IMG/VR virus record: IMGVR_UViG_3300020187_000254
Coordinates: 1-21,907 of that record
DNA length: 21,907 nucleotides
Strand: one strand, 5' to 3'
DNA from: a virus
Shown piece after piece: positions 4,938 to 21,907 of this stretch (its first letter is position 1; each line of letters begins with the position of its first letter). A model generated the notes under the pieces. It saw only the letters and a program-made list of their open reading frames with translations, was not told where the DNA came from and ran no database searches. The translations under genes were made by a program, and so were the position numbers.

Positions 4938-5572
4938 CTACCATTATTACCTGCACCACCATTAACGCCAGAACCTCCTGCACTACCACCTGCTGCGCCT
5001 GTTGCTCTTCCCCAGATAATTTCTTTCTCTACAATGGCAGTTACAAACTCAAAGCCTTTGTCTGTAGGGTGATCAATCTTTTGATCTTCTGCTGTATAGC
5101 GTCTAATTTTTGATCGCTCAAAGGCAATAAGTTTATTCTCTACAGATACCGAAATAGTTGAGGAATCCCCTCCCTCAGTAATTGTCATAATATCCATAAA
5201 TCCTGAAAACATGACCGTTGGATCAGCTATTAACGAACCTGAACTATCAAAAGCACCTAATGCCACAGTAAGTGGTCTGCCTTGGTACTGATGATATTTA
5301 GCAATTACTAAAAATTCAGATTTAAGTCCTGTAATTGAAACGCTAATGCCAGCCGCAGAAAGGTCTGAACTTTCTGCAATCTCACCAATTGATAAAAGAT
5401 CGCCAACACCAGTGTAGGTATTGCCCCCATAAGCAAGATCACCAACACCCGACCACACATTTAAATAACTAGGAGAATCATTTGAATCAAACTGCATTCT
5501 GACAAAGTAAGCTGGTCGAACAACATCAGCAGTTGTTACACTAACCATTCCGCTTGTTAAATCACGACTCAT
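4922..5572 (-). CDS. Minor tail / hub protein, DUF2163 (BR0599)-like
   Basis: This 216-residue protein begins MSRDLTSGMVSV and carries the pattern VRPAYFVRMQF, SYLNVWSGVGDLAYGGNTYTG, GDLLSIGEIAES and GISVSITGL, familiar from a widespread siphovirus tail protein family (DUF2163-like, in the place of lambda gpL). It likely joins the distal tail ring to the J-like hub. The C-terminus (about 193-213) is a glycine-rich tail (GAAGGSAGGSGVNGGAGNNG), probably flexible. The ATG overlaps the preceding stop by 4 nt (ATGA). It ends inside the GNAT start, so tail-tip genes form a tightly coupled block. Family recognition is from memory of the motif pattern; a profile search would settle it. Confidence 0.7.
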   Translation of the reverse strand: MSRDLTSGMVSVTTADVVRPAYFVRMQFDSNDSPSYLNVWSGVGDLAYGGNTYTGVGDLLSIGEIAESSDLSAAGISVSITGLKSEFLVIAKYHQYQGRPLTVALGAFDSSGSLIADPTVMFSGFMDIMTITEGGDSSTISVSVENKLIAFERSKIRRYTAEDQKIDHPTDKGFEFVTAIVEKEIIWGRATGAAGGSAGGSGVNGGAGNNGSWNTA

Positions 5573-6132
5573 AACGCTTCCTCACAGGCAAAAGTAAAAC
5601 CATACAAAGATGTAGAATTGATTGACCAACCAACATCATTTGAGGCCATTCGCCAAAGGCTTTTTGGCAAATTAAAAATAAGAGACTGACCGCTTGCAAT
5701 AGCAAGTCTTAATGGGGGTTGAAATGATAAAGTGCCAGCGCCAGCAGATTTGTCAGCAGTTACCATGTATAAATAACTGCCATGCTGAAAGTAAGTCCCA
5801 GCACTAACCGCTGATGCGGTTGATGTCGTTGTTAAAGATTCTGCTCTTATAGCAGTCGCACCAGATGTTGTTGCACTGGCTGTGCTAGTGTGTAGAGGGT
5901 TGCCAAAGGTAAAGGTGTTTTCGCGGCCTTTAAGTCCAACAATAAAGGCTTCTACCGATCTTGCTTGTTCATGGCTTAATGGAGGAAGGGATACTTCAGC
6001 TTCCCATCGCGCGCCCTGATGAGCAAACACTTGAGTATCTAAAGTAAAGGGTGATTCTGAAACTGCAACGACTCGCTTTAAGCGCATAGTCATATTCTGC
6101 ACAGCTACAGAAGGGAAAGATAAGGTTGTCAT
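5569..6132 (-). CDS. Distal tail-like minor tail protein
   Basis: The 187-residue product starts 3 nt after the tape measure stop, with GGAG at the tape measure end as ribosome-binding site. The N-terminus (MTTLSFPSVAVQNMTMRLKR) and RWEAEVSLPPLSHEQARSVE with NTFTFGNP (about 73-80) are typical of small beta-rich proteins found directly after the tape measure in siphoviruses, where lambda has gpM. A central Ser/Thr/Ala-rich stretch (about 82-112) looks like an inserted loop. It likely forms the ring at the tail end that connects tube to hub. Function is inferred from position and general sequence character. Confidence 0.6.
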   Translation of the reverse strand: MTTLSFPSVAVQNMTMRLKRVVAVSESPFTLDTQVFAHQGARWEAEVSLPPLSHEQARSVEAFIVGLKGRENTFTFGNPLHTSTASATTSGATAIRAESLTTTSTASAVSAGTYFQHGSYLYMVTADKSAGAGTLSFQPPLRLAIASGQSLIFNLPKSLWRMASNDVGWSINSTSLYGFTFACEEAL

Positions 6133-6135
6133 TGA

Positions 6136-8328
6136 TTATGCTCCAGACATTGCTTTAGAGAAGTTACCACCACGCAATCGAGCATCAGCTACTGCACCTT
6201 TAGCCGCTTGAGCAATCTGAGGCATCAACGTTACAATTTCGGCTCGGACAGTGCTTTGTATGCCTGTAGTGACGTTAATAGTTTGATTAACAGTAACAGC
6301 AGAGCCAGAATTACCGCCAACAGCATTTTTAAGGTTTTCATTGGTAGCAATACGGCCTGACGTACCCATTGTCAGAAGTTCTGGGCCACGCTCACCGACA
6401 AGATAGGATTCACCGCCTCTGACTTGACCGCCTAATGCTCGACCTCCAGCAATAGCTGTACCAGCAACAATACCAGCAGAGGCATAACCCATTGCTTTAA
6501 TGCCTGAAACAGACGCAAGCCATGCAAATGGCCCACCAATAGCTGCTTGGGTTGAGGCTACTAATGCCGCTTGTTCTGTCGCAACAATTATTTGAGCAAT
6601 TGCTATTGCTTTTTGTATGGCAAATAGGATTTTAGCTTCTTTAGAGCCTTCTTCGGCAATACCATGAAGACTTGTTGCTATGTTTTGCGCGGATTGCAGG
6701 GCTTGATTTTCAATTGTTGCTTTTGCTGCTGCAAGTGCTTTAGCTTCTGCAATCTCTTTATCACTGTCTGCTTTTCGGCTTTCCGCATCTTTTTCTCTTA
6801 ACTCTTGTCTTTTTTGTTGCGCTGCTGTCTCAATGTCTAAAATTGCTTGAGCGTGTTCTTCTTTACTTATTTTTTCTAAAGCAAGTTGCTCGTTCTCAAA
6901 GTTAATCTTTTCCTGTTCTATTGAGTTAATTAAAGCCAGTTCGTTCATTGCATTTTGCGATAACCGCAATAATCTGTTTTGAGTATTTGCTTTTTCTGCC
7001 GCAACTTTTTTAGCTTCGGCATCTTGACGATTTTTTTCACGGAGTGCTTCGGCATCTGTCCTAATTTTTTCAGCTTTTACAGCAACATCCATTTCTCTTG
7101 CTAAATTATCTTCAGCAGTTTTAATTTGCAACCCTGATGCACCAGCGTCTTTTAATGCTTTTAGTTTTTCTGCTTGTTGTAGTTTTAATAGCTCAACACC
7201 TTTAAAACCAACTTTGTTTAAATTAGCAGTTATAGAAATTATTTTTTCGTCGTTCTTTATCTTTTCTTTATCTAGCTCAATCTCTTCTTTCTTTTTAACA
7301 TTTTTTGCTATTAAACCGTCAATCGTTGTCTTTTGGGTTGCAGTAGCTTCTTTATATGCTTGACTTCCCCTTATAACCGCTTCTTCGGATTTACCTGTAA
7401 CTCTTATTTCTTCATTTAAACTAGCTATTAAATCTTCTGTTCTTGTTGTTAAATTATCGACAGCTTCTTGCTTCATTTCAATTATTGCTGTTTGACGCTC
7501 AATTTGTTGACCTAATAGTAATTGCCTTTTTGCAAAATCCTCATCTGATTCGCTTACTTTTGTTTGTTGGATTACTCCAGGTTGTCCGCCAAATCCAGTA
7601 ACAGTAGTTTTTTGACCTCTTTCTAGTTCGGCATTTAAATCAGCTAAATTTTCTTTTGCATTTCTAATTTCTTCAGTGACCAGAAATCTTTGGAATGCTT
7701 GTGCGGCTGGCCCTAAATCGTCAAAATTATCTCGCAATGTTTTAGCATCATCAGCTAACTCTTTCATAGCCTCGCCAGTTCCAATTAACGAGTTATATAA
7801 AGTACCACCAATCATTGCTCCAAATGCTACTAAAGCACCAAGTACAGCACCTCCAGGCCCAAAGATAGAAGCCATTTGCGGCCCCTGTTGACCAATAATA
7901 GTAAAGGCACTTGTTCCCATTTGCGCTTGAACTGCTACGTCTTGTAACTGCCATGAAACTTGCTGCATAGAGCCGCGCATAGCTCTAAATGGCCCACCAG
8001 TTGCCCCTGCTGACATAGCAGCATCTTTTACTGCTTTAGCTTGTTTTTTGGCTTTGTCAGCAACCTCCATTGAAGATCGCGCTAATGCAAGTTGTTCTTT
8101 TGTAGCCCCTGCATCTTTAAGCGCAAGCAGTTTTACTTCGTTAGCACTTAATCCAGCGGCTTTTGCCTGTTGCTTAAAATCATCATTTAATTTTTCTGTT
8201 GCTTTTTCTAGCCGAGCAACCTTTGATTCCGTTTTTTCGCCAGTTGTCCCAAAATCCTTTAAATTCTTGGTTCCCTCTTTTACTTCGTCAGTATTAACGC
8301 CAACTATTAGCTCAGTTTTATCAACCAT
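6136..8328 (-). CDS. Tail tape measure protein
   Basis: At 730 residues this is the longest complete gene in the window. It is alpha-helical and coiled-coil-rich, with long Lys/Glu/Ala runs at about 20-110 and 300-540. Hydrophobic segments lie at about 140-185 (SAFTIIGQQGPQMASIFG and the following Gly/Ala-rich stretch) and about 570-635. The C-terminal motif GGESYLVGERGPELL (about 640-654) is a common signature of phage tape measures. It sets tail length and is ejected with the DNA; 730 residues at about 0.15 nm each would give a tail near 110 nm, an estimate only. Its ATG overlaps the end of the frameshifted chaperone frame by 8 nt (ATGGTTGA). The weak site AAGAG precedes it. Confidence 0.93.
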   Translation of the reverse strand: MVDKTELIVGVNTDEVKEGTKNLKDFGTTGEKTESKVARLEKATEKLNDDFKQQAKAAGLSANEVKLLALKDAGATKEQLALARSSMEVADKAKKQAKAVKDAAMSAGATGGPFRAMRGSMQQVSWQLQDVAVQAQMGTSAFTIIGQQGPQMASIFGPGGAVLGALVAFGAMIGGTLYNSLIGTGEAMKELADDAKTLRDNFDDLGPAAQAFQRFLVTEEIRNAKENLADLNAELERGQKTTVTGFGGQPGVIQQTKVSESDEDFAKRQLLLGQQIERQTAIIEMKQEAVDNLTTRTEDLIASLNEEIRVTGKSEEAVIRGSQAYKEATATQKTTIDGLIAKNVKKKEEIELDKEKIKNDEKIISITANLNKVGFKGVELLKLQQAEKLKALKDAGASGLQIKTAEDNLAREMDVAVKAEKIRTDAEALREKNRQDAEAKKVAAEKANTQNRLLRLSQNAMNELALINSIEQEKINFENEQLALEKISKEEHAQAILDIETAAQQKRQELREKDAESRKADSDKEIAEAKALAAAKATIENQALQSAQNIATSLHGIAEEGSKEAKILFAIQKAIAIAQIIVATEQAALVASTQAAIGGPFAWLASVSGIKAMGYASAGIVAGTAIAGGRALGGQVRGGESYLVGERGPELLTMGTSGRIATNENLKNAVGGNSGSAVTVNQTINVTTGIQSTVRAEIVTLMPQIAQAAKGAVADARLRGGNFSKAMSGA

Positions 8329-9003
8329 AATTATTAATCTCTTGAGAGTGTAAAGCGTCTAAAACAGTAATAGCCTCTACCTCAAATGACGAAAGTTCAC
8401 CATAAATCTGCATATAAGCAGTAATTTGAGGATAAGTAATACAATCTGGCGCAGAATTTTTTAGTGCGACAAAAATAGACCACAAATATATTAATTTTGG
8501 GTCTAACTTGGGCGCATCTTCTAATTCTTTGGGTTTTTTACCAATAGACTTGGCAACTTGATTAAGATTATCAATACGACTGACTTTTGAGCCTTTATCA
8601 TAGCCACGCGACCAAAATTGCCACTTGGCATACTTAGATAGCTCATTAATCAGCCTTTGATAAAATTTTTCCGGTCGGACACAAACGCATCAATTTGACT
8701 TGCGACACTAGGGGCATTAACGTACAAATCTCTAGCGGCTTCTGGCGAGAAAGGTATTTCTTTTTGCCCTTGAGACAGTCCACGCCATGCTTTAGTAATG
8801 GCAACAATTAGATCAATTTCACCACCCTCTTCTTCAGCAATCAACTTTCTATGATATGCCCTTACAGCCGTTCTATAAGCCTTAGAATCAACACCCTGAA
8901 TGGTTATATAGAAATCGGTTTCTTTGCCGTCTAAGGGGCTTACAATGCGTATTTCAGCCCCTTCCTCATGTGCGTCTACTGTATATAGCGTATTAATGTC
9001 CAT
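8321..9003 (-). CDS. Tail assembly chaperone, -1 frameshift product (G-T type)
   Basis: After the slippery site at 8668-8662 the -1 frame stays open for 113 codons, until TGA at 8323-8321, just past the tape measure ATG. Reading 114 codons in frame 0 and then the -1 frame gives a protein of about 227 residues; the joint reads DRKNF-YQRLINELSKYAKW. The T part includes SRGYDKGSKVSRIDNLNQVA and ends ALHSQEINNYG. It has no good start codon and ribosome-binding site of its own near its 5' end, and it exactly fills the 320-nt space between the short chaperone stop and the tape measure. Lambda gpG/gpGT and most siphoviruses make the same pair to coat the tape measure during tube assembly. The frame and site are seen; use of the frameshift is inferred from the family. 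Confidence 0.87.
8650..9003 (-). CDS. Tail assembly chaperone, short (G-type) form
   Basis: The 117-residue protein lies between the tube protein and tape measure, the standard place for the G chaperone. It is acidic and small (MDINTLYTVDAHEEGAEIRI), with IQGVDSKAYRTAVRAYHRK (about 36-54), a pattern seen in this family. Normal termination is at TGA 8652-8650. Its ribosome-binding site is the GAGG of TAGATCGAGG at 9019-9010, a dispersed copy of the repeat clustered near the holin. It is expected to be made in excess over the frameshifted form and to bind the tape measure before tube polymerisation. Confidence 0.88.
   Translation of the reverse strand: MDINTLYTVDAHEEGAEIRIVSPLDGKETDFYITIQGVDSKAYRTAVRAYHRKLIAEEEGGEIDLIVAITKAWRGLSQGQKEIPFSPEAARDLYVNAPSVASQIDAFVSDRKNFIKG
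8662..8668 (-). promoter_or_regulatory. Programmed -1 ribosomal frameshift site A-AAT-TTT
   Basis: Codons AAA-AAT-TTT-ATC near the end of the short chaperone frame contain the heptamer A AAT TTT, a canonical X XXY YYZ slippery site. It stands four codons before the frame-0 stop, and the -1 frame opens directly into the T domain. I see no strong stem-loop immediately downstream. Confidence 0.85.
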
Positions 9004-9008
9004 TTTAA

Positions 9009-9028
9009 TCCTCGATCTATGAAATTAC
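9009..9028 (-). repeat. Dispersed copy of the TAGATCGAGG element, acting as chaperone ribosome-binding site
   Basis: On the minus strand the tube gene stop TAA is followed by TTTCA and TAGATCGAGG, then ATTAAA and the chaperone ATG. GAGG is well placed as Shine-Dalgarno sequence. The 20-bp block agrees in 19 positions with the array unit at 19914-19933, including the adjoining TAA stop codon. Confidence 0.85.
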
Positions 9029-16955: not shown

Positions 16956-17084
16956 AACTAGACCTTAAACGGGCCTCAATTGCCCGAAATAGCTGAAAAT
17001 AAATGTATTTTATTGCATTTTTTCTTGTATCTTTAATGTATTTTAGGTACACTAAATGTATAAACAGAAAAGGATTAAAAGATT
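16956..17084. promoter_or_regulatory. Divergent control region between terS and the plus-strand cassette
   Basis: The 129-bp AT-rich region holds AATGTATTTTA twice (17002-17012, 17035-17045) and AATGTATA once (17055-17062), all in the same orientation, a layout expected for regulator-binding sites. A likely plus-strand promoter is TTGTAT (17025-17030), 17 bp, TACACT (17048-17053), with the second and third repeats in the spacer and near the start point. A hairpin CGGGC-7 nt-GCCCG (16970-16986) stands in front of terS; with only TTT behind it on the minus strand it would be a weak terminator. I find no convincing minus-strand promoter for terS. Confidence 0.45.
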
Positions 17085-17339
17085 ATGAAACAGTTACCAG
17101 ATCACCCTATCCAATGCCCAGATGATTTGAATTATCTTTCTAGCTTTAACGCTTACTTAATGGATAACAATCCAGCCAATGAGCCTTGCGATGATTGGAG
17201 CGTTGATTCTAATAATCTTCCCCCCGTTTCACCTATTGAAGTTGCCGAAATGCAACACGAAGTCGAAGCACGTTTAAACCGTGAAGCTGACATTCAACGC
17301 ACCTTAAACCGATACGACAAACGATGGGGGTCTAAATAA
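17085..17339 (+). CDS. Unknown 84-residue acidic protein, first gene of the cassette
   Basis: ATG 17085 follows an AAAAGGATT ribosome-binding site. The protein (MKQLPDHPIQCPDDLNYLSS) is acidic in its first half, with a C-terminal helix rich in Glu and Arg (EVAEMQHEVEARLNREADIQ, about 52-71). I do not recognise a family. It stands just behind the likely early promoter and before ArdA, and its stop overlaps the next start by 1 nt (TAATG). By position it may be an early host-takeover or anti-defence protein, which is inference. Confidence 0.7.
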   Translation: MKQLPDHPIQCPDDLNYLSSFNAYLMDNNPANEPCDDWSVDSNNLPPVSPIEVAEMQHEVEARLNREADIQRTLNRYDKRWGSK

Positions 17340-17443
17340 TGGACGCTTTAGCTATTGCCTTATCTTTCAGTTTTTTAATTATGGCGGCTTTATCGTCGCT
17401 TATTCATCTAGTAAACAAATACTTTAAAGGGGTAAACAAATGA
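17339..17443 (+). CDS. 34-residue single-pass membrane protein
   Basis: A short frame, MDALAIALSFSFLIMAALSS followed by LIHLVNKYFKGVNK, starts in a TAATG overlap with the gene before and ends in an ATGA overlap with ardA. Residues 3-24 form one hydrophobic helix, followed by a basic tail, so it should be an inner-membrane peptide with the C-terminus in the cytoplasm. The tight coupling on both sides argues that it is real. Function unknown; superinfection exclusion or a membrane helper is possible. Confidence 0.7.
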   Translation: MDALAIALSFSFLIMAALSSLIHLVNKYFKGVNK

Positions 17444-17934
17444 GCAATATTACTTACCACAGTCTGTCGGATTACGTGGGCGGCAAATGCATTAGCAAAA
17501 CTTTTGAATTAGATCACGTTACTTTTGAAGTTCATCAAGAAGAAATTAGCGAGTGGCTAACCTCTATCACTAAAGAGCGCAAAGATGGAGAAATCCGCGA
17601 AGAATGGATTGTCTGCGATTATGAAGATATACCGCACGAATATGTCGGAGAATACCACATTGATGAGTCTTTTTTTCACCTTATGTCAGCTATTGACAAC
17701 TCTCATTACGACGCTGAAGTTTTCCACGCTGGCGTTTCTCTCGGTCTTAGTATCGAAAATATTGAAGATAACTATTTTGGTTATTTTTCCGATGAAACCG
17801 AATTGGGCGAAATGTGCGCGGATGGCTTAGAAATTCCCGACAACATTCAGCCTTATTTTGACTATGAAGCATACGGGCGCGCTTGCTCCTATGATTTCAT
17901 GGAATCCGACGGCCACTATTTCTTTAACCATTAA
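17440..17934 (+). CDS. ardA: ArdA-type antirestriction protein (DNA mimic)
   Basis: The 164-residue length is that of ArdA (about 165). The N-terminal SLSDYVGGK (8-16) corresponds to the family's LxxYNxGxL. The signature region follows: ENIEDNYFGYFSDETELGEM (106-125) and EIPDNIQPYFDYEAYGRACS (131-150), ending in DGHYFFNH. The composition is extreme, with 37 Asp/Glu against 7 Lys/Arg, as needed to mimic the charge of B-form DNA. ArdA dimers occupy the DNA groove of type I restriction-modification enzymes and block restriction, often also methylation. ATGA overlap with the membrane peptide gene and AAAGGGG serve its start. The early position fits the need to act soon after DNA entry. Family membership is recognised from motifs; activity is not shown. 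Confidence 0.9.
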   Translation: MSNITYHSLSDYVGGKCISKTFELDHVTFEVHQEEISEWLTSITKERKDGEIREEWIVCDYEDIPHEYVGEYHIDESFFHLMSAIDNSHYDAEVFHAGVSLGLSIENIEDNYFGYFSDETELGEMCADGLEIPDNIQPYFDYEAYGRACSYDFMESDGHYFFNH

Positions 17935-17944
17935 GGGGAAAATT

Positions 17945-18229
17945 ATGACTATCCAGCACTTACCAATGCCTGTAATTGATAACTTTTTAAACGGTGACCC
18001 TTGCGCCATTGGCCCGTTTCGATCTGATGGCGAATACCTATATCTAAATAATGACGCTATCGCATACCGAGACAAATCGGGCAAAGTTTTCAGAATGCAG
18101 CAACCTTCCGCAACACCACCACCTAAAAAGCCGCTTTTTAATCGTTTCATTTCGCTTTTTTCTTGGCCGTTTATCGTTTCATGGTTTGCGGTCACAATCA
18201 TTTTTTTACTTATCACTAACATTTTTTAA
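17945..18229 (+). CDS. Unknown 94-residue protein with C-terminal membrane anchor
   Basis: The start at ATG 17945 (MTIQHLPMPVIDNFLNGDPC) has AAGGGG at the right distance, overlapping the end of ardA's stop region; the open frame extends upstream into ardA but without a site. Residues 1-54 form a small soluble part (GPFRSDGEYLYLNNDAIAYR, 23-42), then a Pro/Ser linker (about 54-63) and one hydrophobic helix (about 72-92) at the extreme C-terminus. This is a tail-anchored layout with the soluble part in the cytoplasm. No family recognised. Confidence 0.75.
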   Translation: MTIQHLPMPVIDNFLNGDPCAIGPFRSDGEYLYLNNDAIAYRDKSGKVFRMQQPSATPPPKKPLFNRFISLFSWPFIVSWFAVTIIFLLITNIF

Positions 18230-18239
18230 GGGGTCAATT

Positions 18240-18416
18240 ATGAATATTAACGTTAAAGAAAAGCCAGATTATTTGGCAACGGTTGAAACGCAATTAAATA
18301 ATATAGCCTGGCATTTACAAGTGTGCAGAGAATCCGACTGCGCGCCAGTTGATGCCGTTATAAAAATGCATATAAAAGCCGCGCACTACGCGCTAATGCT
18401 GCACGATAACCAATAA
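18240..18416 (+). CDS. Unknown 58-residue protein
   Basis: ATG 18240 lies behind AAGGGGTCAATT. The product MNINVKEKPDYLATVETQLN continues with NNIAWHLQVCRESDCAPVDA and ends HYALMLHDNQ; it looks mostly helical. Shape and size resemble many small early phage proteins without known function. Stop and next ribosome-binding site are fused in TAAGGGG, as at other junctions of this operon. Confidence 0.7.
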   Translation: MNINVKEKPDYLATVETQLNNIAWHLQVCRESDCAPVDAVIKMHIKAAHYALMLHDNQ

Positions 18417-18427
18417 GGGGTTAACTA

Positions 18428-18592
18428 ATGCTTAAAATAACCGATGATTTGTATCGAGAAAGTGAATTCTATCAATGGCTAGAAAAACGCCCTGCTAATG
18501 TTTATTGTGATTACAATCCGCATTACGTTGATATGGGGGGCACTAGGGTAACAATTACATTCACAATTGATGATGAAGTAATCGAAGAATAA
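18428..18592 (+). CDS. Unknown 54-residue acidic protein
   Basis: The frame starts at ATG 18428 behind AAGGGGTTAACTA and encodes MLKITDDLYRESEFYQWLEK, a middle part PANVYCDYNPHYVDMGG and an acidic end TFTIDDEVIEE. It is the last gene before the internal terminator. No family recognised. The strong site and consistent spacing support it as a real gene. Confidence 0.68.
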   Translation: MLKITDDLYRESEFYQWLEKRPANVYCDYNPHYVDMGGTRVTITFTIDDEVIEE

Positions 18593-18612
18593 ACCCACCT
18601 CTTAACCACTAC

Positions 18613-18634
18613 AGCCCCTTAAATGGGGCTTTTT
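18613..18634 (+). terminator. Intrinsic terminator inside the cassette
   Basis: AGCCCC-TTAAAT-GGGGCT followed by TTTT forms a perfect 6-bp stem with a U tract on the plus strand. It separates the ardA half of the operon (17085-18592) from the XRE half (18678-19750), so the second half needs readthrough or its own promoter. Confidence 0.85.
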
Positions 18635-18677
18635 GGGTGCAAATACTTTATTATCCGCCAATAAGGAGCATTATATT

Positions 18678-18968
18678 ATGAAAATCAAAACACATAGAGT
18701 AAATAAATCAGGTCTTGAAATGATTCGACAAGAGTTACTTTCTAAATGCAAGCCGAGCGTTTTTGATGGTTGGCTTGACGATGATTTGATCAATAGCAAA
18801 AGTGCACAAGAAATGCTAGGCGCTTGGGCTAGTGAAATTGAATCGGCGCTCGATGCTGGCAATGGCGATTTTGTGGAAATAAGTTCTTCTGACACAAAGT
18901 CAGGCCATGTTGAACATTTAGAAATAGATGACAGCGGCATTGATGTTGGGTTTGAACAGTATGAATAA
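18678..18968 (+). CDS. Unknown 96-residue acidic protein
   Basis: ATG 18678 has the strong site AAGGAG. The protein (MKIKTHRVNKSGLEMIRQEL) has a basic N-terminus of about 12 residues, a helical middle (SAQEMLGAWASEIESALDAG, about 38-57) and a strongly acidic C-terminal third (HLEIDDSGIDVGFEQYE). It is the first gene after the internal terminator. No family recognised; the acidic C-terminal part could be another protein-binding or DNA-mimic surface, which is speculation. Confidence 0.75.
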   Translation: MKIKTHRVNKSGLEMIRQELLSKCKPSVFDGWLDDDLINSKSAQEMLGAWASEIESALDAGNGDFVEISSSDTKSGHVEHLEIDDSGIDVGFEQYE

Positions 18969-19233
18969 AACCGCTGATTATGTTAACCGCTTAGTCGATA
19001 ACAACGCATTAAATGCCAAATTAACAGCAAAACAAAAGACCGTTAAAAAGGTAGAGGCTGCCTTATCTGAGGGCATTTTCAACAAGTGGCAATCGTATAG
19101 CCTTGTTTTTAGCTTAGTTGATAAACGCAAAATTACCCTACGTAAAGTCTGCGAGATTGCCGAATTAAACGGCATTCCTTCAGAGGTCATTAAAATGCGT
19201 CGAAGGGATTTAAATCAACTCAATAAAGGCTAA
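18961..19233 (+). CDS. Unknown 90-residue basic protein
   Basis: The ATG lies within the last codons of the gene before (8-nt overlap ATGAATAA). The product begins MNKTADYVNRLVDNNALNAK and is Lys/Arg-rich, with a helical pattern in KITLRKVCEIAELNGIPSEV (about 57-76), which could be a helix-turn-helix, and a basic end KMRRRDLNQLNKG. A nucleic-acid-binding role is plausible. No family recognised. Confidence 0.7.
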   Translation: MNKTADYVNRLVDNNALNAKLTAKQKTVKKVEAALSEGIFNKWQSYSLVFSLVDKRKITLRKVCEIAELNGIPSEVIKMRRRDLNQLNKG

Positions 19234-19235
19234 TA

Positions 19236-19391
19236 ATGATTAAAACCGTAATTCCCAATGCTGAGATCAGGGACGCTGCGCGCGATCTTATAGCCTCTCT
19301 AACGGCTGATGGCTGCACAGATTCACATTTTCTGGCAGAACTTCAAAAACTAGCAGACGGGCAACCAATGCCAAAAAAGGTTAAAAAATGA
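19236..19391 (+). CDS. Unknown 51-residue protein
   Basis: ATG 19236 follows the previous stop by 2 nt with AAAGG upstream. The product is MIKTVIPNAEIRDAARDLIA, SLTADGCTDSHFLAELQKLA and a basic tail PMPKKVKK. It ends in an ATGA overlap with the next gene. It looks like two amphipathic helices. Function unknown. Confidence 0.62.
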   Translation: MIKTVIPNAEIRDAARDLIASLTADGCTDSHFLAELQKLADGQPMPKKVKK

Positions 19392-19561
19392 AACTATCAA
19401 ACGATGAACTAATTAAAATAATCACCGAAAACGCCCACAGGTTATGTATTTTTTATATAACTGATGAGGGGGGCCATTTAGAGTCTTTAGATGTAACCAA
19501 CCCTGCATCCATCAACGGGAACTCTATCCAGTTAAACTGCGAAACAACAAAAGGCGATTAA
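19388..19561 (+). CDS. Unknown 57-residue protein
   Basis: The frame starts in the ATGA overlap with the gene before and ends directly at the XRE start (TAAATG). The product MKLSNDELIKIITENAHRLC continues IFYITDEGGHLESLDVTNPA and ends LNCETTKGD. No family recognised. Continuous coupling with its neighbours supports it. Confidence 0.62.
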   Translation: MKLSNDELIKIITENAHRLCIFYITDEGGHLESLDVTNPASINGNSIQLNCETTKGD

Positions 19562-19750
19562 ATGGAAAACGAATTTATTAGGGAGGCGCGTTTTAAGTTG
19601 CGCCTGACACAAGAAGAACTAGCGAACCAATTAGGCTGCACTAAACAAACGATACATTTTGCAGAATCAGGCAAACGGGACGCAAAAATCACGTTACTGC
19701 TAGCAATTGAATGTTTATTAAGACGCGCTGGCAAATGGCCTATAAATTAG
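19562..19750 (+). CDS. XRE/Cro-type helix-turn-helix regulator
   Basis: The 62-residue protein is little more than a single HTH_3 domain: RLTQEELANQLGCTKQTIHF (about 14-33) contains helices 2 and 3, with Q-T-I-H as the recognition part, and LLAIECLLR closes the fold. Small XRE proteins like this (Cro and DUF-like regulators) dimerise on operator DNA. As last gene of the cassette it could repress the promoter at 17025-17053 or bind the repeat array that begins 26 bp after its stop. Both are inference. Confidence 0.85.
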   Translation: MENEFIREARFKLRLTQEELANQLGCTKQTIHFAESGKRDAKITLLLAIECLLRRAGKWPIN

Positions 19751-19758
19751 GCTTTTTT
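19738..19758 (+). terminator. Intrinsic terminator overlapping the XRE stop codon
   Basis: GCCTA-TAAAT-TAGGC followed by TTTTTT on the plus strand; the TAG of the stem is the stop codon of the XRE gene. A second U run follows closely (19762-19769). Confidence 0.75.
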
Positions 19759-19775
19759 GGCCTTTTTTTGTGTCT

Positions 19776-19924
19776 ACCTCGATCTAGCGGCAAATTTTGC
19801 CTTTTTTCGTACCCACCTCGATCTAGTGGCAATCTTGCGTGCCTGTAAACTACCTCGATCTAGCGGCAAACCACCTCGATCTATTAAAGCACCTCGATCT
19901 AGCGGCAACGTGTACCTCGATCTA
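19776..19924 (-). repeat. Array of six direct repeats, TAGATCGAGGT
   Basis: The plus-strand sequence ACCTCGATCTA occurs six times without mismatch, at 19776, 19815, 19852, 19873, 19891 and 19914 (start to start 39, 37, 21, 18 and 23 bp). Four copies (1, 2, 3, 5) continue G(C/T)GGCAA, giving an 18-bp unit; copies 4 and 6 continue TATTAAA and TATGAAA. Every unit holds GATC and TCGA, and the 18-bp type also CTAG. The array lies in the 179-bp space between convergent operons, with T-rich DNA at its left side. Possible roles are replication-origin iterons, binding sites for a phage repressor or the neighbouring XRE protein, or a packaging site. Regular spacers of CRISPR type are absent. No known phage site with this sequence comes to mind. 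Confidence 0.95.
19789..19807 (+). terminator. Second terminator, built on the first array unit
   Basis: GGCAA-ATT-TTGCC followed by TTTTTT on the plus strand. The left arm GGCAA is the end of the first 18-bp repeat unit. With the terminator at 19738 it stops plus-strand transcription before the minus-strand lysis genes; nothing comparable faces the other way. Confidence 0.6.
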
Positions 19925-19929
19925 TGAAA

Positions 19930-20097
19930 TTACTTGCGCTTAATTACATCTTGAACGGTTTTGCTTTCATATATGCGAATGCCTAACCAAATAATTGTAA
20001 AAAGACTTGCTGTTGGCGGCAACCAAGTAGCTAACGACATGATACCAGTGCTTGCAGCGGCTATATCAATCAAATCTTTGTCCTGATTATCCAACAT
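19930..20097 (-). CDS. Holin, small single-helix type
   Basis: The 55-residue frame starts at ATG 20097 inside the end of the endolysin gene (11-nt overlap, ATGTTGGATAA). An acidic N-terminus (MLDNQDKDLIDIAAAS) precedes a hydrophobic stretch (about 18-42, SLATWLPPTASLFTIIWLGI within it) and a charged end RIYESKTVQDVIKRK. This WLP...IWLGIRIYE..TVQ pattern is common in small holins of marine and T7-like phages. It would form the inner-membrane lesion that releases the endolysin. No spanin gene is seen next to it. Its stop is followed by TTTCA and the first array unit. Confidence 0.78.
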   Translation of the reverse strand: MLDNQDKDLIDIAAASTGIMSLATWLPPTASLFTIIWLGIRIYESKTVQDVIKRK

Positions 20098-20545
20098 AAG
20101 GCTCACCGAAATCCAAGGAGTCTGTATCAAACAGAATCGCCTCACACCTCCGTCTACGAGTCAGCCCTGCTAGGACTTTACCGCTTGCCTTGTCCCATCT
20201 TACGATTTGCTCAGATACTTTGTCGTACTTACCTTCGTTTAACACTTTAAGCAACGTACTCGATCTTAAATTTCCACACCCTAAATTAAACGTCCATGAC
20301 AAAATCGCATCCCATTGATGCTGATTTAGTTCAACAGTCACAAGGCTTTCAACCTGAGATTCTATTTCTTCAATATCTTGTATAAGCAATTCATCTGCTT
20401 TTTCTTGAGAAATCTCACCGTTTTCGATCACATTTCTTGTGTGACCCCAACCCCAGGTTAAAACACCCCCAGCGCATTCGTAGGCTTTAAGTTCACAGCC
20501 CTCAAAATGCTTAATCAGGTCTAAACCTGCTGCGGAAGTTTTCAT
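20087..20545 (-). CDS. Endolysin, T4-type lysozyme (GH24)
   Basis: The start at ATG 20545 (MKTSAAGLDLIKHFEGCELK) gives 152 residues that begin exactly as GH24 lysozymes do. Its AAGG site is only 2 nt away, and an in-frame GTG at 20626 would add 27 residues of no family character. Catalytic Glu is E15 (HFEG). Thr is T30 and His is H35 in TWGWGHT, matching T26 and H31 of T4 lysozyme. The position of the catalytic Asp (T4 D20) is Cys24 (AYECAGG), as in some other phage lysozymes. DAILSWTFNLGCGNLRSSTL (about 79-98) and RWDKASGKVLAGLTRRRRCE (about 116-135) complete the fold. No signal peptide, so it needs the holin encoded next. Confidence 0.93.
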   Translation of the reverse strand: MKTSAAGLDLIKHFEGCELKAYECAGGVLTWGWGHTRNVIENGEISQEKADELLIQDIEEIESQVESLVTVELNQHQWDAILSWTFNLGCGNLRSSTLLKVLNEGKYDKVSEQIVRWDKASGKVLAGLTRRRRCEAILFDTDSLDFGEPYVG

Positions 20546-20652
20546 TACCTTATGCCTGTGTTGTAGTTTGGCAGACCCACGACATATAAGGGGATTTTGT
20601 CGCTTCAATCGGTCTGCACAGGTCACTCTTGTAAAAAGAGCCGCCTAAAAAC

Positions 20653-20677
20653 AAAAAAACCGCCAATGAAGGCGGTC
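20653..20677 (-). terminator. Intrinsic terminator in the late leader (tR'-like)
   Basis: On the minus strand GACCGCC-TTCATT-GGCGG is followed by TTTTTTT. A GC-rich stem of five to six pairs and a seven-base U tract make it strong. It would end the pR' transcript after about 65 nt unless the polymerase has been modified by Q. Confidence 0.9.
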
Positions 20678-20724
20678 TTAAAGAGGAGGTCAGCCGAAAA
20701 ATTTAGAAAACGGCTATGCTAGAA

Positions 20725-20753
20725 ATTAAATCATATTTTTGATTGACTGTCAA
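20725..20753 (-). promoter_or_regulatory. Sigma70 late promoter (pR'-like)
   Basis: TTGACA (20753-20748), a 17-bp spacer and TTTAAT (20730-20725) on the minus strand give a near-consensus promoter 27 bp after the Q stop. Q-binding elements of lambdoid phages lie between -35 and -10; the spacer here has AATCAAAAATATGA. Confidence 0.85.
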
Positions 20754-20780
20754 TACATACAGTGGTTATTTATACAGTTA

Positions 20781-21314
20781 TTACCTCAATCTATTAAATA
20801 TTATGTGATTAATTGTTTCATCTCTTTCAGAATGTTTACTTTGCAATAATGCAAACCGTTTTTTCCATACTTTTCTTGATTGAAATAACGTTACACCTAA
20901 TATTTTAGCCAAATTTCTTTCGCTTACTGTTCGATTGCCAAGTCCGTTACAAGCGCCACAAATTTCAACTTTTGACATTAGTTTTATCTCGCCAACCCCT
21001 TTACATCGTTTGCACTTATAGGGGTTTATAGCAACTTCTAAGGCCGCAAGCGCAAGAACCGCAACCGTTCTATTAGTTTCCTCTTTATTAAGCTTAAAAC
21101 CGCACTGAATGGCCTCTTTTACGGCAAGTGCGTTCAACTCTGCCCTACTGTTGTTGTCTAAGGCAAACTTGCTCAAACTATACAGATACGTCAACCTATC
21201 AAGACCTGTTAAGCAAGCCGCTATATCTTGCGATGTCAGCCTACCTAGCCCCGTCGATCTAACTGAATCCATTGGTGGAGCGCCTGGAGCAAGCATTGCC
21301 ATCAACTCACTCAT
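20781..21314 (-). CDS. Q: Late antiterminator Q
   Basis: I start at ATG 21314 (MSELMAMLAPGAPPMDSVRS), which overlaps the gene before by 8 nt (ATGAGTGA), giving 177 residues; lambda Q has 207. Two CxxCxGxG knuckles, CKRCKGVG (101-108) and CGACNGLG (119-126), form the zinc-binding site of Q. The C-terminal part (WKKRFALLQSKHSERDETIN, 150-169) matches lambda Q in layout (W..TVKPLYDALVVQCHKEES). The helical stretch NRTVAVLALAALEVAINPYK (81-100) precedes the knuckles as in Q. Q loads on RNA polymerase paused near the late promoter and lets it pass terminators. The promoter and terminator found right behind the gene support the call strongly. The last codons (AATAGATTGAGGTAA) contain a diverged copy of the array repeat. 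Confidence 0.88.
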   Translation of the reverse strand: MSELMAMLAPGAPPMDSVRSTGLGRLTSQDIAACLTGLDRLTYLYSLSKFALDNNSRAELNALAVKEAIQCGFKLNKEETNRTVAVLALAALEVAINPYKCKRCKGVGEIKLMSKVEICGACNGLGNRTVSERNLAKILGVTLFQSRKVWKKRFALLQSKHSERDETINHIIFNRLR

Positions 21315-21525
21315 CAACAACAGCCATTGTAGGGTTATGGGCTGCAACATCATCTTCAGATGGAGGTAATTGTTTCATTCTTACCATAATTTCATCAGAA
21401 AGCCCTCGCAATGCGTTTGATCGCACATCACCTTTAGCGGTTCTCATAATATTCCAGTATTTGGAAATTAAGTCATACCAATCATTGTCTAAACAGGCGT
21501 TAAAATCAGCTTCAAAATCAACCAT
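21307..21525 (-). CDS. Unknown 72-residue acidic protein upstream of Q
   Basis: ATG 21525 lies behind AGCGAGGATTGATA and overlaps the previous stop by 8 nt (ATGGTTGA). The product starts MVDFEADFNACLDNDWYDLI, has a helical middle (ISKYWNIMRTAKGDVRSNAL, about 20-39) and an acidic end PPSEDDVAAHNPTMAVVDE. No family recognised. Translation is coupled to Q, so it may be another early regulator. Confidence 0.72.
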   Translation of the reverse strand: MVDFEADFNACLDNDWYDLISKYWNIMRTAKGDVRSNALRGLSDEIMVRMKQLPPSEDDVAAHNPTMAVVDE

Positions 21526-21685
21526 TATCAATCCTCGCTTTTCTATCTAACATTGCCCCTATAAACTTTTGTATTGCCCTTATATCTTTAACCGTAAAAT
21601 CTTTTTTAAGTTGGACGGAGGCTGTTGCTGTGTTCAGCCCTATTTCAAATAGTTCTTTAGGTTTTTTTTCTGTTAGGTTAGTCAT
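21518..21685 (-). CDS. Unknown 55-residue basic protein
   Basis: The frame starts at ATG 21685 behind GGAG and overlaps the gene before by 8 nt (ATGACTAA). It encodes MTNLTEKKPKELFEIGLNTA, ATASVQLKKDFTVKDIRAIQ-like helical sequence, and ends LDRKARIDNG. The amphipathic helix KDIRAIQKFIGAMLDRKA (about 33-50) is the main feature. It fills the space between metallophosphoesterase and the 72-residue gene without gaps, which supports it. Confidence 0.68.
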   Translation of the reverse strand: MTNLTEKKPKELFEIGLNTATASVQLKKDFTVKDIRAIQKFIGAMLDRKARIDNG

Positions 21686-21907
21686 TTTTTTCTCCATTAA
21701 TGCGATCAGGGTTGACGGTCACTCTGCTGTCCTCGCCATATTCTTCTGAAAGAACTACGCAAGTCATAGATCGTGATGAACCAAATCCCGAACTTGCGTG
21801 CCAGCTATCTGGATTTGCCAACACATTCCACACCTCAAAGACCATGCCCCCCTGCTCATGCACTTTTTTATGATGAAGGTGACCCAGCCATCCAAACCGA
21901 TACTTAG
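21678..21907 (-). CDS. Metallophosphoesterase (calcineurin-like), C-terminal part
   Basis: The frame is open to the right edge, so only the last 75 residues are seen; an in-frame GTG at 21863 is not the true start. KYRFGWLGHLHHKKVHEQGG contains the GHLHH block (about 21884-21870), the metal-binding GHxH motif that ends the catalytic domain of calcineurin-like phosphoesterases. The following WNVLANPDSWHASSGFGSSR and SMTCVVLSEEYG match the C-terminal beta strands of a phage branch of this family (PSL..SW...SG pattern). Such phage enzymes lie among replication or nucleotide genes and may act as DNA exonuclease or phosphodiesterase. The substrate cannot be told from this part. Confidence 0.7.
   Translation of the reverse strand, partial: KYRFGWLGHLHHKKVHEQGGMVFEVWNVLANPDSWHASSGFGSSRSMTCVVLSEEYGEDSRVTVNPDRINGEKND

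Follow-up and report, generated by a model that had tools for sequence, protein, structure and literature searches.

We propose that the six direct repeats at positions 19,776 to 19,924 of the window (the whole 21,907-nt stretch of viral DNA that was analysed) are probably clustered junction sites at which gene cassettes recombine, with a role comparable to that of an integrase-less integron array (CALIN). The repeats look like docking points because the same 11-base site joins one-gene cassettes in related phages and in bacteria of the family Porticoccaceae. In the phages, the repeat is exact, has one polarity in each record, coincides with the breakpoints between modules, and bounds a slot that holds alternative cassettes. 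The same core also bounds cassettes that are common to genomes of the host family.

The array and its surroundings

A sequence search of the window bears out the initial annotation's description of the array. There are six exact copies of ACCTCGATCTA on the plus strand, starting at 19776, 19815, 19852, 19873, 19891 and 19914 (spacings of 39, 37, 21, 18 and 23 bp), and copies 1, 2, 3 and 5 have the 18-bp extension G(C/T)GGCAA. By arithmetic, about 0.01 copies of the exact 11-mer are expected by chance in 22 kb, so the claim that chance would not give even one also stands. If up to 2 mismatches are allowed, the window contains 23 matches to the core, as compared to 3.4 +/- 1.9 in shuffled sequences. 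The features are:

9009..9019, plus strand: variant core TCCTCGATCTA
19562..19750, plus strand: XRE-family regulator of 62 amino acids, the upstream neighbour (open reading frame list and family match)
19738..19758, plus strand: predicted terminator-like GCCTA/TAGGC hairpin and T run that end the plus-strand operon (read from the sequence)
19776..19924, plus strand: slot A, with six direct 11-bp cores ACCTCGATCTA and five spacer modules (sequence search; about 15 relatives aligned)
19776..19793, plus strand: site 1, G-type, core and GCGGCAA
19815..19832, plus strand: site 2, G-type, core and GTGGCAA
19852..19869, plus strand: site 3, G-type, core and GCGGCAA
19873..19890, plus strand: site 4, T-type, core and TTAAAGC, a 7-bp stub
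19891..19908, plus strand: site 5, G-type, core and GCGGCAA
19914..19929, plus strand: site 6, T-type, core and TGAAA, adjoining the stop codon of the ORF on the lysis side (minus strand)
19930..20145, minus strand: small ORF adjoining the endolysin, a putative holin (from position and hydrophobicity only; no family match)
20087..20626, minus strand: endolysin (phrog_7)
20783..20793, plus strand: variant core ACCTCAATCTA, which overlaps the stop codon of the gene for the Q-like antiterminator (20781-21353)

The array lies between convergent genes: a plus-strand operon that ends in the XRE gene (25 bp before the array starts) and the lysis genes on the minus strand (the putative holin's stop codon is 5 bp past the array). 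In relatives, the gene cassettes of slot A begin at their 5' end with the TTAAA that is seen in site 4. In the aligned relatives, the right flank of site 6 is constant and its left flank is variable. Both near-copies, at 9009-9019 and 20783-20793, are on the same strand as the array.

The window virus (a 21.9-kb record) is a tailed phage, as it has terminase, portal, and tail genes. The group is temperate, since its relatives have an integrase gene and a tRNA-type attP. No GenBank phage matched positions 17000-21907 of the window by blastn.

Modules and cassettes in related phages

The 18-mer is present in 31 stretches of IMG/VR contigs. Related phage contigs, which are fragments, have 3-7 copies at slot A and further copies at other intergenic places. 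Of these, slot B follows int, slot C separates late genes, and slot D precedes the Q-like gene; there are others. Across 21 phage records, 139 of 139 sites (with at most 1 mismatch) are on one strand per record, and the reversed control pattern was not found in these records. The neighbouring genes vary in orientation, so the polarity follows the genome and not each neighbouring gene; most slots nonetheless adjoin minus-strand transcription units. In a sister lineage the core is ACCYCGRTCTA, with layout and polarity unchanged. In 18 distinct slot-A arrays, 86 of 94 cores are exact, but this conservation is biased upward because the records were found using the exact core. A single array (L014) accounts for six of the eight variants; because variants mix within this array, a strict overlap-identity rule is not obeyed. 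Lone matches without arrays (L140-L142 and L160/L161/L163) were treated as chance.

When slot A is aligned by its cores, units of core plus spacer are gained or lost whole, with breakpoints at the 11-mer. The spacers are of GYGGCAA types, the 7-bp stub TTAAAGC, or, in some phages, a whole cassette. A phage cassette has the order core, TTAAA..., ribosome-binding site, one ORF on the core's strand, a short tail, and the next core. The ORFs that some phages hold in slot A are single and promoterless. L046, L034 and L028 have nothing in the slot between GTCGAACC-core and core-GCGGCAA; this slot holds a 139-aa ORF in L050 and L033, a 76-aa ORF in L013 (the same gene is also in L026), and 151 bp without a long ORF in L017. 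Slot A of L025 holds a 122-aa ORF, and this cassette (L025:1170-1538, minus strand) encodes a CsrA-domain protein (Pfam, E = 3e-15). A Pfam search with the other two phage cassettes gave no match.

The initial annotation held that scrambling of the array in close relatives with intact genes would speak against a functional element. Such scrambling does occur: L026 and L022 share 98.9% identity across 1855 bp rightward and 96% across 96 bp leftward, and differ by core-bounded modules, among them a 272-bp cassette. However, the scrambling is modular, with its breakpoints at the 11-mer.

Modules are also found in more than one slot. A micro-ORF that begins with MGYKK is in slot A of L010 and in slot B of other phages (96% identity over 55 bp). 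A 137-aa cassette lies between cores in slot B of L040, L156 and L157. The lysine-rich 17-aa micro-ORF MGYKKAAKPKKKPKVKK lies on the minus strand between two cores (L046:13955 region, L016, L071 and L010), and its length variants differ by an in-frame 12 nt (81 vs. 69 bp from core to core). When the phage cassette proteins were searched elsewhere, only the same phage group matched.

We also note that the core occurs twice, in frame, within the 3' part of the SSB gene, in a 21-nt repeat that encodes PPRSSSQ (L051:6025-6429 and L038), and that the relative L046 has adjacent DNA methyltransferase and PAPS reductase genes (5104-6914, minus strand).

The same core in Porticoccaceae chromosomes

When genome contigs were scanned for the motif, one of five matches was in Porticoccaceae bacterium UBA4026. 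The other four (Nitrosospira, Hyphomicrobiales, Binatota and Acidimicrobiia) had no shared context and look like chance. Across the order (195 genomes), the 18-mer was found in only one metagenome-assembled genome, which was already known. The 11-mer is in several draft genomes of Porticoccaceae, where it forms tandem arrays of one-gene cassettes with core-GCCCTGATTTGACTGG and promoter-like -35/-10 elements before each gene; the core lies at a fixed spacing of 8 bp upstream of the -35-like box. This promoter element was found in 20 of 110 genomes (with at most 2 mismatches). A promoter-based search that did not use the core showed low information upstream and a rise at the first base of the core. 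Three cassettes are each present in two genomes and are 93-95% identical from core to core; outside the cores, identity is 55-67%, as compared to 56% for random DNA. No cassette was seen to be common to phage and host.

Arrays of this kind include tandem small genes (cupin, SnoaL, DUF1330, DoxX/MauE-like, and unknown) in L074 (G242:C16), L075, L073, L043, L076 and L081, and most of the small genes in these Porticoccaceae arrays have the same promoter directly after the core. Some cassette arrays abut the 3' end of genes with a shared dockerin-like C terminus, EEIEAHLETL (L078, L113, L121 and L072).

Porticoccaceae are likely to be the hosts of this phage family because two chromosomes (G241 and G242) contain a tRNA-His or tRNA-Lys sequence followed by the phage family's int-side end.

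Recombination at the core would be the simplest account of the mechanism. Each 11-bp core (ACCTCGATCTA, or the corresponding core of the sister lineage) would be the joint between successive modules. The modules would be of two kinds: bare spacers, about 6-48 bp long, which represent empty sites and stubs, and single-gene cassettes, which begin with core-TTAAA and are followed by core-GYGGCAA. A site-specific recombinase would act at the core and would be supplied by the host, and the window's six sites would be an unoccupied landing platform.

By genomic association, the best candidate for this recombinase is the P4-type tyrosine integrase of the host arrays. In 6 of 20 loci of its homologues, which were found without reference to the site, the core or the cassette promoter is nearby, and in two of these loci the stop codon of the integrase lies in the core. 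The integrase and the cassettes also tend to occur in the same genomes (8 shared, of 16 and 19, in 110 genomes; P ~0.001). Only distant homologues of this integrase were found in viral contigs (34-41%), and the integrase was not seen to be flanked by direct att repeats. A complete tyrosine-recombinase site would be expected to be longer than this asymmetric 11-mer. In the fullest copies, inverted arms around TCGATCT appear to resemble the core site of a tyrosine recombinase. The arms TTGCCACC-TCGATCT-AGTGGCAA are complete in L072 (5179) and most copies have only the inner CC/GG; similarly, the arms TTGCCAC/GTGGCAA are complete in some copies only.

More tentatively, and with somewhat more doubt than confidence, we suggest that Porticoccaceae have an undescribed, non-integron system of cassette capture, in which the core is double-stranded and 11 bp long and the enzyme is probably a P4-type tyrosine recombinase. 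Because their temperate phages would carry platforms of host-type sites, cassettes could pass between phage and host. The classical way in which bacteria stockpile single-gene cassettes is the integron. If our suggestion is true, then a family of ocean bacteria shares with its temperate phages a second cassette system with a different joint; phages would offer cassettes a natural route of transfer, and the short-range exchange of modules between phage genomes would have a testable explanation. As each site is a short, exact sequence, other genomes can be screened for the system, and laboratory plasmids would allow it to be assayed. The initial annotation knew of no described phage element with this sequence, and in the literature that we covered (which included few subscription papers) we likewise found no described counterpart, nor any description of the phage group or of such arrays in Porticoccaceae.

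Other explanations and known systems

The main rival is that the motif is associated with gene starts, because in several genes the phage site also occupies the ribosome-binding position. Read on the minus strand, TAGATCGAGGT would be a ribosome-binding linker (stop codon-TTTCA-TAGATCGAGGT-6 nt-ATG) that is common to several late genes. At these short boundaries, homologous or annealing recombination would exchange modules, and slot A would consist of linkers left behind by gene loss. The motif does end 4-6 nt before the start codon in four slots: before the MGYKK micro-ORF, a 100-aa gene (which is preceded by tandem copies 17 nt apart), the Q-like gene, and the window ORF 8650-9003. For this last ORF, the minus strand at 9009-9019 reads TAGATCGAGGA, which is the ribosome-binding sequence and is 5 nt upstream of the ATG. 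The consensus of the left flank, RACC|ACCTC, resembles the 3' end of 16S rRNA, and the phages encode an exonuclease and SSB. However, there is no conserved start codon after the slot-A copies, Shine-Dalgarno pairing does not need TAGATC, and 11 bp is short for homologous recombination. Also, in the host cassettes the core is placed 8 bp ahead of a -35-like box and away from the start codon, and yet it bounds modules. The host arrays and slot A, which lacks starts, are thus left unexplained. We consider this explanation to be unlikely, although association with gene starts may be a second role of the motif, or its main role in the phages.

The Start-Associated Sequences of Cluster K mycobacteriophages (PMC3203893) are similar in being short asymmetric repeats, mostly in one orientation, with copies a few nt before start codons that include the Shine-Dalgarno stretch. 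But nearly all of those are at gene starts and they are absent from the host, whereas here most copies are in an array without start codons, and the 11-mer is at cassette joints in host chromosomes.

It is less likely still, with perhaps a small chance of being right, that the repeats are dispersed asymmetric operators (stoperator-like or P1 C1-like) that are bound by a transcription-controlling protein of the phage or the host. The sites are polar and intergenic, with several loci per genome, and the fixed 8 bp between the host core and the -35-like box could be explained in this way. The initial annotation had considered a repressor array, with the XRE protein as a candidate for binding, but the XRE gene is missing from L020, L026 and L029, which do have the array. 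Furthermore, no promoter is evident in slot A, and operators alone would leave the breakpoints at the core and the alternative cassettes in one slot unexplained. The stoperators of mycobacteriophage L5 (mentioned in PMC3203893) are likewise polar, asymmetric, dispersed, and intergenic, but here there is no known binding repressor, modules swap at the repeat, and the host copies bound cassettes.

An iteron replication origin or a packaging (cos/pac) site, both of which had been suggested previously, now seems highly improbable, and as with the repressor array, neither fits the evidence. The array does have dense direct repeats with GATC, and it lies between lysis and terminase genes. But the terminase small subunit is 2.8 kb from the array, and the replication-initiator gene of relatives (L046:8199-8942) is kilobases away. 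A single-locus iteron origin would not account for the copies beside the integrase and late genes. More broadly, there are many loci with copies, and in the host chromosomes the unit is not near any gene for replication or packaging; spacing and copy number vary freely among close relatives.

We give almost no credence to the idea that the phage's own tyrosine integrase uses the 11-mers as arm-type or core sites. One cluster is about 100 bp from attP and downstream of int, but attP is a separate sequence: a 27-49 bp tRNA 3' end (His, Lys, or perhaps another in L012) between int and slot B (L046:13600-13900, L049, L051, L016 and L012). Slot B itself was rejected as the attP, which is the adjacent tRNA end. 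The direct repeats beside attP differ among phages (for example TGACCAGT, TGATCGGT, or TGTCGGA) and are probably the arm-type sites of Int, while the core is constant. The core is also identical across integrases that diverge widely (from 95% identity to no match), and in relatives the slot-A cluster is about 10 kb from attP.

Two further comparisons are to P4-type islands and to integrons. Genomic islands with P4-type integrases also have an integrase that adjoins a short attachment-like repeat, and here the repeat forms the integrase's stop codon in two cases. The differences are that here there are many integrase-free single-gene cassettes in tandem, that the repeat is not a tRNA end, and that no direct repeats were seen bounding the integrase element.

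By the tests that we ran (for IntI and for attC-like hairpins), the system is not an integron. None of 6 host genomes had a match to IntI (TIGR02249) over the cut-off, although these drafts may be incomplete. Folding of 105 sites, using 24 bp of left flank and 10 bp of right flank for each, gave no signal of attC-like hairpins relative to mononucleotide shuffles (mean z = 0.0). The core ACCTCGATCTA lacks GTT and does not match the crossover box GTTRRRY, and similarity between cassettes breaks at the core. On the other hand, tandem single-gene cassettes are exchanged between genomes at the site. Integron arrays and phage CALINs (PMC9892861) also have tandem polar sites and one-gene cassettes that are mostly in one orientation, and they include integrase-free arrays in phages and cassettes that are common to several genomes. 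The system described here differs from them in that the joint is an 11-bp asymmetric core and in that the host cassettes carry their own conserved promoter.
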